From: Bacillota bacterium
GTDB taxonomy: Bacteria; Bacillota; DSM-12270; Thermacetogeniales; Thermacetogeniaceae
Length of the DNA: 64,000 nucleotides
NCBI GenBank assembly: GCA_013177945.1
Contig: JABLXW010000020.1
Location: 62,001 to 126,000, forward strand
Reading direction: 5' to 3'
This document shows, piece after piece, positions 44,149-56,005 of the stretch. Both the position numbers and the translations under genes were made by a program. Position 1 is the stretch's first letter. Each line of letters begins with the position of its first letter. The notes beneath the pieces are model-generated. The model made no database searches. It worked only from the letters and a program-made list of their open reading frames with translations, and was not told where the DNA came from.

Positions 44149-45009
44149 CTAAACAGGATTCTGCCGTACGTATTCCTGGTAGGCGGCGCGCAGGCTCACC
44201 GCAGCCGGTCCCGGTCTTCCCGAACCGATGGGGAACCCGTCCAGGGAGACGAGAGGCATCACCTCAAGCAGGGAGCTGGTGAGAAAAGCCTCCTCGGCCT
44301 TCCTGAAGTCTTCGGGCAAAACGATTTTCTCCGCAACCGAAAACCCAAGTTCGCCGGCGAGAGAAAGGACGATTTCCCGGGTAATCCCCGGCAGAAGCCC
44401 GCTCTCCGGGTGGGGTGTGATGATCGAGCGGCCCTGGAAAACAAGAAAAACGTTGCTGATCGTCCCTTCGGCCACCTCCCCTTTGATGTTCAAAAAGATC
44501 CCCTCATCCGCCCCGGCCGCGGCCGCCTCCCGGCGCCCCAGCACATTTTCCAGATAGTTGAGGGATTTCAACCTCACAAGAGGGGAAAGGTGGTTGCGGG
44601 GAAAGCTGACGGTCGCGGCGCGAAAACCACGCGCATAAGCAGCAGGGGGGTAGGGTTCCCCCGGGTGGGCAGTAATGACAACGGTAGGTTTGATGCCAGG
44701 AGGGGAAAGCAGCCCCCGGGGGGACTCCCCCCGGGCTACCGTCACCCTCAGAGACCCCTCGGCGAGGCCCGAGGCCTCAAGGAGCGCTTCCACACCGGTC
44801 TTAAGCTCTTCACCTGGAAAGGGTATCTGGAGCACCTGACACCCCGCCGCCAGCCGCGCCAGGTGCCGCCTCCAGGCAAAAGGTTTTCCCCGGTAGACCC
44901 GAACCGTCTCAAACAGGCCGTCCCCGTAAAGGAACCCCCTTTCTCCAATCCCCAGCGAGGGAGCGTTCTCGGGGACCAGGCGCCCCCTCACCCAGGCAAA
45001 GCCAGGCAC
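44149..45009 (-). CDS. pabC: 4-amino-4-deoxychorismate lyase
   Basis: PLP fold-type IV enzyme releasing pyruvate from aminodeoxychorismate to make p-aminobenzoate for folate. 286 residues: GIGERGFLYGDGLFETVRVY, the PLP lysine in RLKSLNYLENVLGRREA, and EGIFLNIKGEVAEGTISNVF. It resembles IlvE but the setting after pabB makes PabC the better call. GTG at 45007-45009 overlaps the end of pabB by 22 nt. Confidence 0.9.
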   Translation of the reverse strand: MPGFAWVRGRLVPENAPSLGIGERGFLYGDGLFETVRVYRGKPFAWRRHLARLAAGCQVLQIPFPGEELKTGVEALLEASGLAEGSLRVTVARGESPRGLLSPPGIKPTVVITAHPGEPYPPAAYARGFRAATVSFPRNHLSPLVRLKSLNYLENVLGRREAAAAGADEGIFLNIKGEVAEGTISNVFLVFQGRSIITPHPESGLLPGITREIVLSLAGELGFSVAEKIVLPEDFRKAEEAFLTSSLLEVMPLVSLDGFPIGSGRPGPAAVSLRAAYQEYVRQNPV

Positions 45010-46427
45010 TCCTCAACCACCCCCTCTTCGTACCCCAGCGCCCGGAGAAGGGCGCGCGCCTTGTAAATGGTTTCCCAGTACTCCGCATCGGGGTCCGAAT
45101 CGGCGACAATCCCGCCTCCCACCTGGAAGTATGCGGTCCCGTCTTTGATGATAAAGGTGCGAATCACGATGTTTAAATCGGCAGATCCGTCAAATCCCAA
45201 ATAACCGAGGGAGCCGGTATAGATTCCCCTTTTGACAGGCTCCAGTTCCTCGATGATTTCCATCGCCCTGATTTTAGGAGCTCCGGTAATGGAGCCGCCC
45301 GGGCAGGTCGCCATCAAAAGGTCGACCAGGTCCCTGCCTGGAGCAAGGGTTCCCCTTACCGTCGAGACCAGATGAAACACGGTGGCATACTCCTCAAGGC
45401 AGATCAGTTCCGGGACGTGAACGCTTCCAAAGCTGCATACCCGCCCCAGGTCGTTGCGCTCCAGGTCGACGATCATCACCAGTTCCGCCCGGTCCTTTTC
45501 GCTGTTTAAAAGCTCCGTCCGGAGGCGCCGGTCCTCGGCAGGGGTTCTCCCCCGCCGGCGCGTCCCCTTGATGGGGCGCGTCTCCACCACCCCGTTTCTC
45601 ACCTGGAGAAACCTCTCCGGTGAAGCGCTGGCAACAACTGCTTCGGGGTAATTGAGGTAGGCAGAAAAGGGGGCAGGGTTGATCCTGCGCAGCCTGCAGT
45701 AGAGGGACCAGGGTGAGCCTGCCAGCGGGCAGGAAAAGCGCTGGGAAAGGTTGACCTGGAAAATATCTCCTGCTGCAATGTAATCCTTCGCCCGCTGGAC
45801 CGCCCTCCGGTAGGTTTCGCGGGTGAAGTGCCCTGTAATCTTCGAGGCATTTCCCGGCAGAAAGGGCTCCTCCTGTTCACGTGCCGGAAGCCGGGCAAAG
45901 CTCTGGGAAACAAGGGCCTCAAGCTCTTCCAGCCTCCGGCGCGCCCGCGCCGGGGCATTTTCGCCCGACTCAGGCAATCCGGTGGAGGTCAGGTATGCCT
46001 TCCCCTCCAGGTGATCTATTACCACCAGGCGGTCGTAAAATCCCAGATAGCAGTCAGGCAACCCCAGGTCGTCCTCGGCCCAGTTAGGGAGCTTCTCCAG
46101 CTGCCAGCCCAGATCATAGGCAAAGTAGCCGAAGGCACCCGCGGCCACCGGCACCGGAGCAGAAGAAGGAACCTGGCAGCGCCGGAGCAGTTCTTTCAAA
46201 ACAGGAAAGGGATTGGCCCTTCTTTCCCGCCAGGCTCCCCCTTCCCAGATGGCAACCCGGTCCCCTTTCGACCTGAAGACCAGGAAGGGGTCGCTTCCCA
46301 GAAAAGAGTAGCGCCCCAAACGCTCGGGGTTCATTCCGCTGTCCAGGAAGAAGCTGAAGGGCCGCTCCCTTAAGAGTTCGAAGACCTGAACCGGATCGAA
46401 AGGGCCGGTTTCTTTAATAATCATCAT
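44988..46427 (-). CDS. pabB: Aminodeoxychorismate synthase component I
   Basis: 479 residues of the chorismate-utilising family: an N-terminal anthranilate-synthase-type domain (PFSFFLDSGMNPERLGRYSF) and a catalytic domain with RETYRRAVQRAKDYIAAGDIFQVNLSQRF, ETRPIKGTRRRG, and CPGGSITGAPKIRAMEIIEELE. The PIKG lysine is the nucleophile that separates PabB from TrpE (usually PIAGT). ATG at 46425-46427 behind AGGGGG, overlapping aroF by 14 nt. It works with the glutaminase at 47319. Confidence 0.92.
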   Translation of the reverse strand: MMIIKETGPFDPVQVFELLRERPFSFFLDSGMNPERLGRYSFLGSDPFLVFRSKGDRVAIWEGGAWRERRANPFPVLKELLRRCQVPSSAPVPVAAGAFGYFAYDLGWQLEKLPNWAEDDLGLPDCYLGFYDRLVVIDHLEGKAYLTSTGLPESGENAPARARRRLEELEALVSQSFARLPAREQEEPFLPGNASKITGHFTRETYRRAVQRAKDYIAAGDIFQVNLSQRFSCPLAGSPWSLYCRLRRINPAPFSAYLNYPEAVVASASPERFLQVRNGVVETRPIKGTRRRGRTPAEDRRLRTELLNSEKDRAELVMIVDLERNDLGRVCSFGSVHVPELICLEEYATVFHLVSTVRGTLAPGRDLVDLLMATCPGGSITGAPKIRAMEIIEELEPVKRGIYTGSLGYLGFDGSADLNIVIRTFIIKDGTAYFQVGGGIVADSDPDAEYWETIYKARALLRALGYEEGVVEECLALPG

Positions 46428-47292
46428 TGGCAACCCCCTGGCTGATTTTCAGTGTTCTCCCGGCGCGGCAAATCCACTCTTCATCCCTGACCAGACGGCC
46501 GACGGCCCGCGCCACCCTTCTTAAATCCCGCACCAGCCGGGAAAATTCTTTCAAGTTCAGAGACTGCCGGCCGTCGCAGAGGGCCGCTGCCGGATTGGGG
46601 TGCACTTCGATGAGGAGGCCGTCGGCCCCGGCGGCAACGGCGGCCCGCGCCAGCGCTCCGACAAGCTCCCGCTTCCCGGCGGCATGACTGGGGTCCACCA
46701 CCACCGGATAGGGGCCCAGCTCTTTCAGGACCGGCACCGCACTCAGGTCCAGGGTGTTCCTGGTCTGGGTCTCGAAGGTGCGGATTCCCCGTTCGCACAA
46801 GATAATTTCCTCATTCCCTGCCGCCCTGATGTGCTCCGCCGCCAGCAGCCATTCCTCGCAGGTTGCAGCCATGCCCCGCTTCAGCAGAACGGGGCGTCCG
46901 CTTCTCCCGACCTCCCGGAGCAGGGCAAAGTTCTGCATGTTCCGGCTCCCAACCTGCAAGATGTCTGCGTAAGCCGCCACCAGCTCCACGTCCCGGGGGT
47001 CCAGGACCTCGGTGACAACAGCCATTCCCGTGAACTCCCTGGCCTCCGCCAGGATCTGGAGCCCAGCCCTGCCCAGGCCTGCAAAACTGTAAGGGCTGGT
47101 CCGGGGCTTGAAAGCTCCCCCTCTCAGCACCCGCACCCCTATCTGGCGCAGGGCGCGGGCGCAGGCCAGAAGGGACTCCCTTTCTTCCACAGCGCAGGGC
47201 CCCGCCATCAGGACGACCTCGGGGCTCCCGAAAACAACCTCTCCCACCGCGACCGTCTTCTTGGGCTCGCGGGGCTGCAGGTGGTCTTCCAT
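46414..47292 (-). CDS. aroF: 3-deoxy-7-phosphoheptulonate synthase (class I beta)
   Basis: First shikimate-pathway enzyme: PEP plus erythrose-4-phosphate gives DAHP. About 292 residues: MAGPCAVEERESL, GGAFKPRTSPYSFAGLG, LKRGMAATCEEWL, ILCERGIRTFE, and DPSHAAGKRELV. There is no FeeS-like N-terminal ACT or fused chorismate mutase, so feedback control is not evident. ATG at 47290-47292 is 8 nt after GGGGGG. It lies between pabA and pabB, boosting chorismate supply for this branch. Confidence 0.94.
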   Translation of the reverse strand: MEDHLQPREPKKTVAVGEVVFGSPEVVLMAGPCAVEERESLLACARALRQIGVRVLRGGAFKPRTSPYSFAGLGRAGLQILAEAREFTGMAVVTEVLDPRDVELVAAYADILQVGSRNMQNFALLREVGRSGRPVLLKRGMAATCEEWLLAAEHIRAAGNEEIILCERGIRTFETQTRNTLDLSAVPVLKELGPYPVVVDPSHAAGKRELVGALARAAVAAGADGLLIEVHPNPAAALCDGRQSLNLKEFSRLVRDLRRVARAVGRLVRDEEWICRAGRTLKISQGVANDDY

Positions 47293-47318
47293 TGCAATAA
47301 CCCCCCTTCCGAATCGGT

Positions 47319-47930
47319 TCACGGCACAGGCCTGCCCGCCCGGGCAAAATTCCTGTTCCAGGCCTCTGCCTGCTCTAAGAAGTTGCGCAGAAGGGGCTTC
47401 CCCTCTTCCGTGAGGATGGACTCCGGATGAAACTGGACCCCCTCCACAAAAAACTCTCTGTGCCGGATCCCCATGATCTCCCCCTGATCGGTTTCGGCGG
47501 CAATCTCAAGACAGGGAGGGAGGGTTTCCCGCCGCACGATCAGGGAGTGGTAGCGTGTCGCCTCGAAAGGATTCTTTAAACCGGTATAAATCGTGCGCCC
47601 GTCGTGGTAAATGAGGGAGGTCTTCCCGTGCATCAAGCGGGGCGCCCGGACGACTTCCCCTCCGAAGGCCTGGCCGATCGCTTGGTGGCCGAGACAAACG
47701 CCTAAAATGGGGATCTTTCCTGCAAAGCGGGCAATCAAATCCAGGCAGATCCCTGCCTCGTTGGGGGTGCAGGGGCCCGGTGAAAGGAGGATTGCCGTTG
47801 GAGCCAGCGCCTCAATTTCTGCCAGCGTAATGGCATCGTTCCGGTAGACCTTGATCTCCTGACCCATTTCCCCCAGATACTGAACCAGGTTAAAAGTAAA
47901 GGAATCATAGTTGTCGATCATCAAAAGCAA
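47319..47930 (-). CDS. pabA: Glutamine amidotransferase, component II of ADC/anthranilate synthase
   Basis: 203 residues, class I amidotransferase: [15 protein letters not shown], oxyanion strand [13 protein letters not shown], nucleophile Cys in [15 protein letters not shown], and the His-Glu pair in [13 protein letters not shown]. It supplies ammonia to PabB and possibly to TrpE, as the shared TrpG of Bacillus does. TTG at 47928-47930 with GGAGGGG upstream; an ATG three codons in is less well spaced. First gene of an operon whose leader carries a TRAP-like site. Confidence 0.92.
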
Positions 47931-48008: not shown

Positions 48009-48034
48009 AAAAAAACCAGTACCGAAGTACTGGT
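48009..48034 (-). terminator. Leader terminator (attenuator) of the pabA operon
   Basis: On the minus strand ACCAGTAC and GTACTGGT form an 8-bp stem closed by a TTCG tetraloop, followed by seven T. It lies in the leader, 79 bp before pabA and 16 nt after the TRAP-like repeats, so it controls read-through. Confidence 0.9.
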
Positions 48035-48049
48035 CCGCATCCCAGACAG

Positions 48050-48103
48050 CTCCGCGTCGTCTCATCTCGGCTTCCCTCGGCTCACCTCGTCTCAACTCAT
48101 CTT
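48050..48103 (-). promoter_or_regulatory. TRAP (MtrB) binding site candidate: eleven spaced triplets
   Basis: On the minus strand the leader reads AAG, five GAG, AAG, two GAG, GAC and a final GAG, nearly all separated by exactly two bases (the last by three). Eleven (G/U/A)AG triplets with 2-3 nt spacing is the target of the 11-subunit Trp RNA-binding attenuation protein. In Bacillus TRAP also controls trpG/pabA. Tryptophan-loaded TRAP bound here would favour the terminator just downstream. The antiterminator pairing was not resolved. Confidence 0.75.
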
Positions 48104-48149
48104 ATGCAGTTTTAAATTAATTTAATTTCACTCCTATACCCTGCCCTTA

Positions 48150-48178
48150 ACTTTACCACAGCCGCCTCCAGGTGTCAA
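48150..48178 (-). promoter_or_regulatory. Sigma-A promoter of the pabA operon
   Basis: On the minus strand TTGACA (48173-48178) and TAAAGT (48150-48155) are 17 bp apart. The transcript would start near 48143 and have a leader of about 210 nt. Confidence 0.85.
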
Positions 48179-52541: not shown

Positions 52542-53154
52542 CTACAGCCTGCCTTTCCTTGTGCCGCAGTCTATCCCGCCAGGAAACTCCCTTAGTCTCC
52601 AGGTTGCCACTGGAACAGTAAGGGGAGCCTTTGGGCATCATCTTATTACTATCAAGCGCAACCGCTACGTTATTAACCATGAATGAAAGAGGCGAAGGAG
52701 CTTTGTGGAAAATAACCCTCCGCCTGTTTTTGACGCTTCTCTTTCTTGTACCGGGGGAGTCCGGGTTGGTGGCCGAGATTTTTTAATTGTTTGAGGAGCG
52801 GCCCCCGCTCCCACCTGACGCGAGGAAGGTCCATGAGGTCGGTTTTCCGGTCCACCAATCCTTCCCGCCCGGCAAAAATGCAGCGGAAACCGGCCCTCCG
52901 GGCGGCCTCCCGGACCTCCCTGCCCGTGCAACCGAAGGGCAGGGAAAGCGCGGACGGCGGCCTCCCCACGATCTCCTCGAGAACAGCGCGGGATACCACA
53001 AGATCGTTCCAGATCCGGGCCCGGCGTTCGTCTCCGGTTTCAGGCCGGCCCGTCCAGGGACTATGGAGTCTTGCCTGGTAGTACGGCTGTCCGCCAACGG
53101 TACTGTGCCCCTCGTGGGTGTGGGAACCTACGGTAACAAGCCCGCTCGCTGCCA
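52542..53154. repeat. 613-bp direct repeat, copy 1 (deacetylase 3' end)
   Basis: Almost identical to 54764-55377, differing by one indel and a few substitutions. It covers the C-terminal 160 codons of a polysaccharide deacetylase and about 130 bp beyond its stop. Here the gene's 5' part is missing and is replaced by REP-like sequence. Confidence 0.9.
52673..53154 (-). pseudogene. 5'-truncated polysaccharide deacetylase copy
   Basis: Encodes only LAASGLVTVGSHTHEGHSTV to the C-terminus (about 160 codons), matching the full gene at 54896-55834. It has the His pair (SHTHEGH) but not the catalytic Asp-Asp. No start codon or ribosome site fits; it is a duplication product truncated at the REP boundary. 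Confidence 0.88.
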
Positions 53155-53165
53155 AGCACACAAGC

Positions 53166-53414
53166 ACAAACAGGGGGACGGTTCTGCTGTTTGTCCCCTT
53201 CAGGCTTTATTTTAACAGTCAACCCTGTTATGTTATCCTCGCAATCTGTCTGAGGCTACTCCCCTCTATTTCCTTGATTTTCTGCAAGATTTTATCCCGC
53301 TCTGGTTTTTCCATCTGGTGCAGAACATTAACCGGTCTACCACTTAATTTTTTTGATTTCGTGTTTCGTCACTTACTCCTGCTTGCGCAAACATGAGAAC
53401 CGTCCCCTTGTTTG
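53166..53414. repeat. REP-flanked transposase fragment, copy 1
   Basis: About 249 bp, matching 54510-54761. REP-like words lie at both ends (gggacggttctgctgtttg at one, caaacatgagaaccgtccc at the other) with a transposase C-terminal fragment between, like the arrangement of REP-associated transposons. Confidence 0.82.
53228..53370 (-). pseudogene. REP-associated (IS200-like) transposase, C-terminal fragment
   Basis: In-frame stretch KLSGRPVNVLHQMEKPERDK followed by ILQKIKEIEGSSLRQIARIT and a stop at 53228. The 'LKEIEGxSLRQIARITG' helix-turn-helix is typical of the C-terminus of REP-associated Y1 transposases in Firmicutes. The catalytic HUH domain is absent. Confidence 0.75.
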
Positions 53415-54053
53415 CCTATCTTTTTCCTTGAGGGCAAGCACTTTCAATTCCTTCAAGAAAGACTCCAGAAGCTCCGGTGCTTCGCTCAACAGTTCCGGCT
53501 CAAGGAGGAGCAGCCCGGCGGCCTCTGTCGGGTATACCTTTTTCAGCTTCTCCCACCGCCGCTCGAGAGCTTCGGCTCTCGCCGTCAGCGGGAACGCCTC
53601 TCTCAGCAGGTCCTCTCTTCTGCGTTTGTAGGCTGCAGCCACGTCCAGGACATCCCTCGTCTTCAGCGTTTCTGCTCTATAGAAGAGTTTCTTAACTACT
53701 ATCTCCTCGGGGGTTTCTATGTACACGGATTCCCCTTCAACTTCGCTTTCCCGGCGAGGTCTTCGGGTGAGGTTGGGAGCCACAATGAAGTCGATTTCTC
53801 CCTCTGCGAGCTTCAGTTTGAGGAAGCTGGAACCCTCCACGTAGTCGCGGACGATCTCTGCCGCCGCTCTGTTGAGTCGCGGGGTCAAAAAGGTAAGAAG
53901 CTGGGCATCGGTAAAAAAAATGTCGACATCCCTGCTTTCCCTGTGATGGAGGTGAAGGGCGAGGGCCGTTCCTCCTCCGAAGCTCCACTCGCTACGGGGA
54001 ATCCCGGAGGCGTCCAGAAGGCGGACCGCCTTTTTAAAGAGTTTCTTCCACAT
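53373..54053 (-). CDS. AbiEii/AbiGii-type nucleotidyltransferase (toxin-like)
   Basis: About 226 residues from the ATG at 54051-54053. WSFGGGTALALHLHHRESRDVDIFF contains the GG...(x)D(x)D nucleotidyltransferase signature of the DUF1814/AbiEii family; IETPEEIVVKKLFYRAETLKTRDVLDVAAAY is the following conserved stretch. It overlaps the 91-residue gene by 20 nt, as toxin-antitoxin pairs do. The last codons (TRGRFSCLRKQE) are made of REP-like sequence, so the true C-terminus was replaced by the adjacent repeat. Activity is uncertain. Confidence 0.8.
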   Translation of the reverse strand: MWKKLFKKAVRLLDASGIPRSEWSFGGGTALALHLHHRESRDVDIFFTDAQLLTFLTPRLNRAAAEIVRDYVEGSSFLKLKLAEGEIDFIVAPNLTRRPRRESEVEGESVYIETPEEIVVKKLFYRAETLKTRDVLDVAAAYKRRREDLLREAFPLTARAEALERRWEKLKKVYPTEAAGLLLLEPELLSEAPELLESFLKELKVLALKEKDRQTRGRFSCLRKQE

Positions 54054-54309
54054 CCAGGTATACCATCTCCTCGAAGTCCGGGTTCGGGTAGATCTCTCTG
54101 ATGTATCTCTCGTAGTAGGCCGCCAGCACTTCGTCTGAAACTCCGTGCCTTGAGGCGAACTTCGCCACATCCTGGAGGGGAACGTCCGTAAAGAAGTTGA
54201 AGATCTGGGCAGCGTACTTTTTGTTGAATTTCATGTTTCTCAGCATTTCCGCGAGCCTTTCCTCTTTCAGGCGGCCGCGCGTCTGGGCGTTTATCGTGGA
54301 CTCAACCAT
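54034..54309 (-). CDS. Small partner protein of the nucleotidyltransferase (antitoxin-like)
   Basis: 91 residues, helical and charged (GRLKEERLAEMLRNMKFNKK, DVAKFASRHGVSDEVLAAYYERYIREIYPNPDFEEM). The middle could be a helix-turn-helix. Its 3' end overlaps the nucleotidyltransferase start. I do not recognise a named family; the antitoxin role is by position. The pair sits exactly between the two duplicated repeat blocks. Confidence 0.6.
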   Translation of the reverse strand: MVESTINAQTRGRLKEERLAEMLRNMKFNKKYAAQIFNFFTDVPLQDVAKFASRHGVSDEVLAAYYERYIREIYPNPDFEEMVYLDVEETL

Positions 54310-54763: not shown

Positions 54764-55377
54764 CTACAGCCTGGCCTTTCCTTGTGCCGCAGTCTATCCC
54801 GCCAGGAAACTCCCTTAGTCTCCAGGTTGCCACTGGAACAGTAAGGGGAGCCTTTGGGCATCATCTTATTACTATCAAGCGCAACCGCTACGTTATTAAC
54901 CATGAATGAAAGAGGCGAAGGAGCTTTGTGGAAAATAACCCTCCGCCTGTTTTTGACGCTTCTCTTTCTTGTACCGGGGGAGTCCGGGTTGGTGGCCGAG
55001 ATTTTTTAATTGTTTGAGGAGCGGCCCCCGCTCCCACCTGACGCGAGGAAGGTCCATGAGGTCGGTTTTCCGGTCCACCAATCCTTCCCGCCCGGCAAAA
55101 ATGCAGCGGAAACCGGCCCTCCGGGCGGCCTCCCGGACCTCCCTGCCCGTGCAACCGAAGGGCAGGGAAAGCGCGGACGGCGGCCTCCCCACGATCTCCT
55201 CGAGAACAGCGCGGGATACCACAAGATCGTTCCAGATCCGGGCCCGGCGTTCGTCTCCGGTTTCAGGCCGGCCCGTCCAGGGACTATGGAGTCTTGCCTG
55301 GTAGTACGGCTGTCCGCCAACGGTACTGTGCCCCTCGTGGGTGTGGGAACCCACGGCAACAAGCCCGCTCGCTGCCA
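54764..55377. repeat. 614-bp direct repeat, copy 2 (within the complete deacetylase)
   Basis: Partner of 52542-53154. The gene continues intact upstream (to 55834), so this is the parental copy. Confidence 0.9.
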
Positions 55378-55834
55378 TCAACCGCAGCTGCTCCGGAGAA
55401 ACCTTCGGCAGGTGGAGCTCCTCCCGGCGCACCGGGGCGAGCCATTTGGTGATGGGGAAGACAACCAGCGGGATTCGGCGCGCCTTCAGGGCCGGAAAAG
55501 CCAGACTGTAAATGCCCTCGTACCCGTCGTCTGCCGCCAGGAGGACGGCGCCAGGCGGCACATCACCCCGCCCCTCAACAAAAGCAAGGAATTGGTCCAG
55601 AGCGATGAAAACGTAGCCGGCCCTTTGTAGGGAGTCGAGCGTTTCCCGGAATTCTTTTAAAGAAACGGTATAGGGCCCCGGCTTTTCCTGTATCTGGTGA
55701 AAGAAAACCGCCGCCACCTGGCGCCCGGAAGCTACCGCCCCTTGAGCCCTATTTTGTTTTAAGCAGGAAGGCCTCGTAGCATGAAGACTATCAATGAAAA
55801 ATATACAACCCAACAACAATATGGTTGCTGCCAT
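54896..55834 (-). CDS. Polysaccharide deacetylase (NodB homology), exported
   Basis: About 312 residues. Signal peptide or anchor at the N-terminus (ATILLLGCIFFIDSLHA), then a PgaB-like N-terminal segment (AAVFFHQIQEKPGPYTVSL) and the NodB domain: catalytic Asp pair in AADDGYEGI, metal His pair in GSHTHEGHS, and LSLPFGCTGREVREAAR. It probably removes N-acetyl groups from an envelope or biofilm glycan. ATG at 55832-55834 with AAGGG 10 nt upstream; upstream codons in frame lie in a repeat shared with 58808. Confidence 0.88.
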   Translation of the reverse strand: MAATILLLGCIFFIDSLHATRPSCLKQNRAQGAVASGRQVAAVFFHQIQEKPGPYTVSLKEFRETLDSLQRAGYVFIALDQFLAFVEGRGDVPPGAVLLAADDGYEGIYSLAFPALKARRIPLVVFPITKWLAPVRREELHLPKVSPEQLRLMAASGLVAVGSHTHEGHSTVGGQPYYQARLHSPWTGRPETGDERRARIWNDLVVSRAVLEEIVGRPPSALSLPFGCTGREVREAARRAGFRCIFAGREGLVDRKTDLMDLPRVRWERGPLLKQLKNLGHQPGLPRYKKEKRQKQAEGYFPQSSFASFIHG

Positions 55835-55892
55835 CAAAAATTTGCCCTTGCTTGTATTTATCAAACTATCTACCCCCGACGACAGACAATTC

Positions 55893-56005
55893 AACTTGAT
55901 TATATATTTCTGGAAAAGATTTGTACAGCGCCGGCAGGATTTAAGACACAAAGGAGCGAAACGTAACAGGATGAAAAAATTGGTGAGATGTGGTGTTCAA
56001 GAGAT
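55893..56005 (+). repeat. 113-bp promoter/leader repeat, copy 1
   Basis: Begins aacttgattatatatttctg and matches 58808-58920 with only scattered differences. It contains a start codon followed by codons for KKLVRCGVQE; here this opens a 29-codon frame ending near 56060. It precedes the CapK-like gene by 110 bp. Confidence 0.8.

Follow-up and report, generated by a model that had tools for sequence, protein, structure and literature searches.

What is known of TRAP comes almost wholly from Bacillus. The B. subtilis protein attenuates transcription of trpEDCFBA, whereas for trpG, trpP and ycbK it acts at the ribosome-binding site and represses translation (PMC11255114; PMC3913778). The leader described here lies on the minus strand of a 64-kb window (the whole stretch of DNA analysed, 64,000 nucleotides, to which all positions refer), with a promoter, a triplet array and a UUCG-capped terminator preceding, in that order, pabA-aroF-pabB-pabC. 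It has in common with the B. subtilis trpEDCFBA leader that the genome carries a TRAP gene, that 11 triplets are spaced by 2-3 nt, that a terminator lies downstream and that the last repeats are expected to overlap an antiterminator. It differs in its target operon, in its strong UUCG-capped terminator and in its candidate antiterminator, for which a small conserved core takes the place of a long hairpin made of the repeats themselves. With the B. subtilis trpG (pabA) site in the folate operon it shares the target gene and tryptophan control of a shared glutaminase subunit; there, however, TRAP covers the ribosome-binding site, whereas here a terminator follows the site within the operon leader, and all four genes would come under its control. 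In the open-access literature searched, neither the core nor a pab operon attenuated by TRAP is described.

The predicted sigma-70-type promoter, TTGACA-17-TAAAGT (48150-48178, minus strand), has 10 of 12 matches and a TG ahead of the -10 element, which bears out the consensus promoter of the original prediction; 0.3 such promoters are expected in shuffles, and its position is kept in the sister leaders. Downstream of it, pattern searches, a triplet-chain score and shuffles define the predicted TRAP binding site (48050-48103, minus strand). This begins with nine AAG or GAG triplets at an exact 5-nt period (48103-48061; AAG GAG GAG GAG GAG GAG AAG GAG GAG), followed by GAC as repeat 10 (48058-48056) and, after a 3-nt spacer, by GAG as repeat 11 (48052-48050); with its spacers the array (48103-48050) reads AAG-AT-GAG-TT-GAG-AC-GAG-GT-GAG-CC-GAG-GG-AAG-CC-GAG-AT-GAG-AC-GAC-GCG-GAG. 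The eleven triplets initially proposed are thus recovered if the imperfect GAC is taken as the tenth, although only ten are NAG. Set against the expectation for a TRAP site, i.e. about 11 (G/U)AG triplets with 2-3 nt spacers, the array conforms with deviations, namely two AAG and one GAC, and these repeats are presumably weaker for TRAP. The pattern (DAGNN)x6 occurs once in the 2.7-Mb genome, in the window leader, and its reversed control has zero occurrences in the whole genome. The triplet-chain score is 24.0; when the 64-kb strand was shuffled 20 times the maxima were 10-15, and 200 dinucleotide shuffles of the leader alone all stayed below the score of the leader. In sister genera, the triplet period is kept while the spacers change.

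The gene for TRAP itself, mtrB, the absence of which had been named as grounds for abandoning TRAP control, is present in one copy in the genome (PF02081, E=1e-38; NCBIfam MtrB equivalog, 136 bits with a cut-off of 117). The nearest solved relatives of the encoded protein are all TRAP, and its alignment keeps all ten of the residues that we take to be the binding residues of Bacillus TRAP, i.e. T25, T30, Q47, T49 and T52 for tryptophan and E36, K37, D39, K56 and R58 for RNA. A search of the genome for anti-TRAP (rtpA), which had likewise been suggested, gave nothing over the cut-off, the best match being 21.7 bits (cut-off 32) within a 376-aa frame. Of the features that define a TRAP attenuator, the pab leader and its genome show three at the level of sequence, i.e. 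mtrB, triplets and a terminator.

The operon genes are all on the minus strand. The first three of those originally predicted score above curated cut-offs: pabA/trpG, for the glutamine amidotransferase of aminodeoxychorismate / anthranilate synthase (47319-47930; TIGR00566, 274 bits, cut-off 121), aroF, for DAHP synthase (46414-47322; TIGR01361, 376 bits, cut-off 268), and pabB, for aminodeoxychorismate synthase component I (44988-46433; TIGR00553, 355 bits, cut-off 328, and below the trpE cut-off). The fourth (44149-45009), a probable aminodeoxychorismate lyase (aminotransferase class IV), is matched by pabC and branched-chain aminotransferase models, every one under its cut-off, but is called pabC by context. 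The pabA of the window is the only trpG/pabA over the cut-off in the genome; the trp operon has the order trpE, trpD, trpC, trpB, trpA and aroF, then pheA-, tyrA- and aroA-like genes (read from translations), and trpG is absent from it. Tryptophan control of the pab operon therefore has a simple reason, since such control would also tune the glutaminase supply for anthranilate synthase. A stricter rule, by which triplets would be confined to genomes having pabA as their one trpG, fits g1, g2, g6 and G019, but it is contradicted by G002 and by triplet-bearing pabB-pabC operons, and was kept as a partial reason only; in the pabB-pabC operons without pabA, trpG sharing does not account for triplet control.

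The predicted intrinsic terminator (48009-48036, minus strand) has a UUCG loop, a U tract and a stem of 10 pairs (48036-48013); 0.5 such stems are expected in shuffles. Across 32 relatives it shows 13 further pair types, a level of covariation reached by none of 500 shuffles, and by this covariation the terminator, as had been predicted ahead of the operon, is genuine. In a plain fold, the full leader has ordinary stability (z -0.57). Rfam models gave zero matches to the window and the leader, whether for T-box, THF riboswitch or any other family, and the identification of the leader with a known riboswitch or T-box was dropped; an Rfam search of a TRAP-free leader gave chance-level matches only.

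Between the triplets and the terminator is a conserved core, which was missed in the original prediction. In the window it is GACGCG..CUGGGAUGCGGACCAGUAC (48027-48058, minus strand), with a putative stem S1, in which CGCG (48056-48053) pairs with UGCG (48039-48036), and a possible second stem S2, in which CUGG (48045-48042) pairs with CCAG (48033-48030). The pab leaders of the order and class have in common GGACGCG-N-UUGGGAUGCGAACCAGUAC-loop-terminator, and in its full form the core is GACGCG..UGGGAUGCGRACCAG (type 1, signature GACGC..GAUGCG) or GACUCG..GGGGUGAGNACCAG (type 2, signature GACUC..GGUGAG). S1 is CGCG/UGCG in type 1 and CUCG/UGAG in type 2, with 97% of cells paired; G-C changes to U-A in 13 of the 32 sequences, with one clean double change, the stem being short and its main covariation a single event, i.e. 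the type 1/type 2 split. S2 is YUGG/CCAG, the CCAG being the terminator's own 5' arm. It fits type 1 well, with A-U to G-C and U-G to C-G changes, and is partly kept in type 2, where the U-A pair is broken in several leaders. The core probably folds as a small stem or pseudoknot using the 5' arm of the terminator; S1 and the partly supported S2 would jointly make an H-type pseudoknot that holds this arm. The unpaired core residues are invariant. Compactness, conserved unpaired residues and a possible pseudoknot by the terminator are features in common with small H-type pseudoknot riboswitches (e.g. preQ1-I and SAM-II), whereas the core has no Rfam match and a pseudoknot that is supported in part. 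In TRAP-free leaders (e.g. L213 and L272), the core holds two direct repeat units, GGACGCGAA and GGAUGCGAA, at a distance of about 16 nt; these might serve as a double site for a protein in place of the stem.

As a candidate antiterminator, the S1/S2 core is partly supported by covariation. When the pab leader was folded in search of an antiterminator, as had been suggested, the GCCGAG triplets paired with the terminator's UUCG loop and 3' arm; this pairing was dropped for pab, being no better than in spacer shuffles (p 0.2-0.8). Triplet-to-terminator pairing does beat spacer shuffles in the trp leader of the same genome (p 0.002), in a related ior leader (G001; p 0.018) and in the trp leader of that relative, where none of 500 spacer shuffles was as good.

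Our main reading, to which we give a probability of about 0.7, is that the leader is a TRAP-dependent transcription attenuator, in which tryptophan-loaded TRAP would open the core and let the terminator form. In the window leader, TRAP repeats 10 and 11 are on the 5' strand of the core, and in most TRAP-type leaders a GAG is immediately ahead of the core, with a GAG or CAG inside it, after the S1 5' strand. With its 5' strand placed between repeats 10 and 11, S1 should be opened by bound TRAP. When tryptophan is ample, TRAP would wrap the eleven triplets and, with repeats 10 (GAC) and 11 (GAG) flanking and including the S1 5' strand, block S1 and any S2 pseudoknot; the terminator would then fold and RNA polymerase would stop before pabA. 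When tryptophan is scarce, the core would form first on the emerging RNA and hold the CCAG, and the operon would be read. The site, the terminator, mtrB, and the conserved layout and gene context are observed, whereas TRAP binding, the antiterminator role of S1/S2 and the direction of control are inferred. Rough energies favour the terminator over so small a core and therefore kinetics, pausing or another factor must help. The pABA operon, including DAHP synthase, would thus be under transcription attenuation, in contrast with the translational control of pabA/trpG in Bacillus.

The sample of relatives comprised 20 genomes of the order and class (the class of Thermacetogenium phaeum), 18 of which have mtrB. 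The window-type leader recurs in sister genera, and in the order and class genomes triplet sites are ahead of pab, trp, trpB-like, ior and, once, trpX-like genes. A leader covariance model found pab leaders in nearly all 20 genomes, some of them triplet-free, and models R2 and R3, then run across the phylum, found the core across it, as type 1 and type 2. pabA or pabB follows within 331 nt in 41 of 42 leaders, the 42nd being at a contig end. The pabB calls beside leaders were made by tblastn; in a spot check, five of six proteins were over the curated PabB cut-off and under the TrpE cut-off, and the sixth, a truncated piece (G141), had zero matches at the strict threshold. We did not count G065, G103 and G168, which matched the terminator half of the models only, without the core, nor G061, a bare terminator hairpin at a non-pab place. 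Triplet arrays, rarely reached by shuffles, are present in 28 of the 41 tested pab leaders, with two weak (G192 and G317), and extend beyond the sister genera to ten other families (f3, f14, f33, f38, f66, f75, f93, f111, f120 and f132). As the arrangement recurs in many Firmicutes families, TRAP may widely link tryptophan to folate precursor supply.

The other 13 of the 41 pab leaders, from five families (f1, f16, f46, f120 and f124), have the core and zero triplets. Between families, the cores of triplet-free leaders are 82-100% identical and their flanks 10-47% identical, which is near chance. In one complete, single-contig genome (G316), the core is present and mtrB has no match; the predicted -10 element there ends about 20 nt before the core, such that core and terminator make up nearly the whole leader. 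Across a 398-genome sample of the phylum, mtrB is present in 36 of 37 core-bearing genomes and in 164 of 361 others (Fisher 1e-10, with kinship ignored). Two readings of the predicted elements stay: an older RNA element joined later by TRAP, or a TRAP attenuator with decayed triplets. Either way, a core without a TRAP site is a case for how a protein-controlled attenuator builds on, or decays to, a TRAP-independent RNA. The TRAP-free leaders of one family (those of G019 (L213), G005-G007, G015, G016, G018 and G002) have a second, GACRCCUCGGG-like motif upstream of the core, which was seen in no other family.

These observations bear on what the core itself does. It may be an independent regulatory RNA, riboswitch-like or bound by some other factor, that acts on pABA synthesis via the terminator, the TRAP triplets being a lineage-specific second input on its 5' strand; we consider this unlikely, but of real weight, given the triplet-free leaders in five families, the contrast in identity between cores and flanks, the invariant unpaired residues without an Rfam match, and the leader without mtrB, in which the short distance from -10 to core leaves no space for another sensor. 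Yet nearly all core-bearing genomes have mtrB, the triplet-free state is found in few independent families only, and the core may equally be a relic of TRAP control or its antiterminator. The more specific proposal, that the core is a new cis-regulatory RNA for a folate- or chorismate-related signal controlling pABA synthesis in many Firmicutes, overlaid on its 5' strand in some lineages by an eleven-repeat TRAP site as a tryptophan override, is by a shade the more tentative. We are more doubtful that TRAP acts on the polymerase directly, or with NusA/NusG pausing, the core then serving as a hairpin for pausing and not as an antiterminator: in B. subtilis, TRAP is able to bring about termination without attenuator RNA (PMC3913778) and the core is a short hairpin immediately before the terminator, but this terminator is strong, intrinsic and covarying, unlike the weak Bacillus attenuators, and the core is retained where triplets are absent.

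The remaining alternatives concern the site. Because it is in the 5' leader before the terminator, and off the pabA ribosome-binding site, it is more naturally read as an attenuator than as a site of translational repression; attenuation of the whole operon, as originally suggested, is supported by this layout, well upstream of the pabA start, which is conserved in relatives. Repression of pabA translation, with a constitutive terminator, has its precedent in B. subtilis trpG (PMC11255114), and in several Bacillales that we scanned trpG has array-like sites at -35 to -75, but here it is very improbable, as the terminator intervenes and the pabA start is about 120 nt beyond the end of the site, which leaves the Shine-Dalgarno sequence untouched. 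Hardest of all to credit is that the purine-rich repeats arose by chance or from another origin and are no TRAP site: the two AAG and one GAC speak for this, but the array is unique in the genome, missing from shuffles and the reversed control, and constant in period in sister genera despite changing spacers, and mtrB is present.

Besides the core and its occurrence without triplets elsewhere, the original prediction did not include other TRAP-type sites that the genome carries. One is the leader of the trp operon (L085 1650-1752), which combines a triplet array with a terminator of its own; another array with a terminator is ahead of a phenylacetate-CoA-ligase-like (PaaK-like) gene and iorAB (L220; G000:C8:180300-185300). 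A triplet array and terminator precede genes for a PaaK-like aryl-CoA ligase and/or iorAB (indolepyruvate ferredoxin oxidoreductase) in most genera of the class (L220, L054, L076, L081, L083, L217, L218, L221, L222 and L226-L230). We know of no previous mention of paaK/iorAB as a TRAP target; if they are repressed by TRAP with tryptophan, an anabolic or salvage role for iorAB in these anaerobes is suggested. Arrays over the Shine-Dalgarno sequence and start codon of a TrpB-like gene (TIGR01415; L060, L062, L063, L067, L070, L074, L078 and L082), with a weaker one across the start of that in the genome of the window (L094 1447), point to possible translational control by TRAP. In one relative (L080; G016:C113), an array is over the start of a gene for a TrpX-like ABC transporter substrate-binding protein (348 bits, cut-off 390), followed by apparent permease and ATPase genes. 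Elsewhere in the window, the 3' portion of a polysaccharide-deacetylase-like gene is present twice in near-identical form (52665-53167 and 54888-55951), about 2.2 kb apart, with a nucleotidyltransferase-like ORF (53373-54170; names from translations) in between, and the region looks duplicated.
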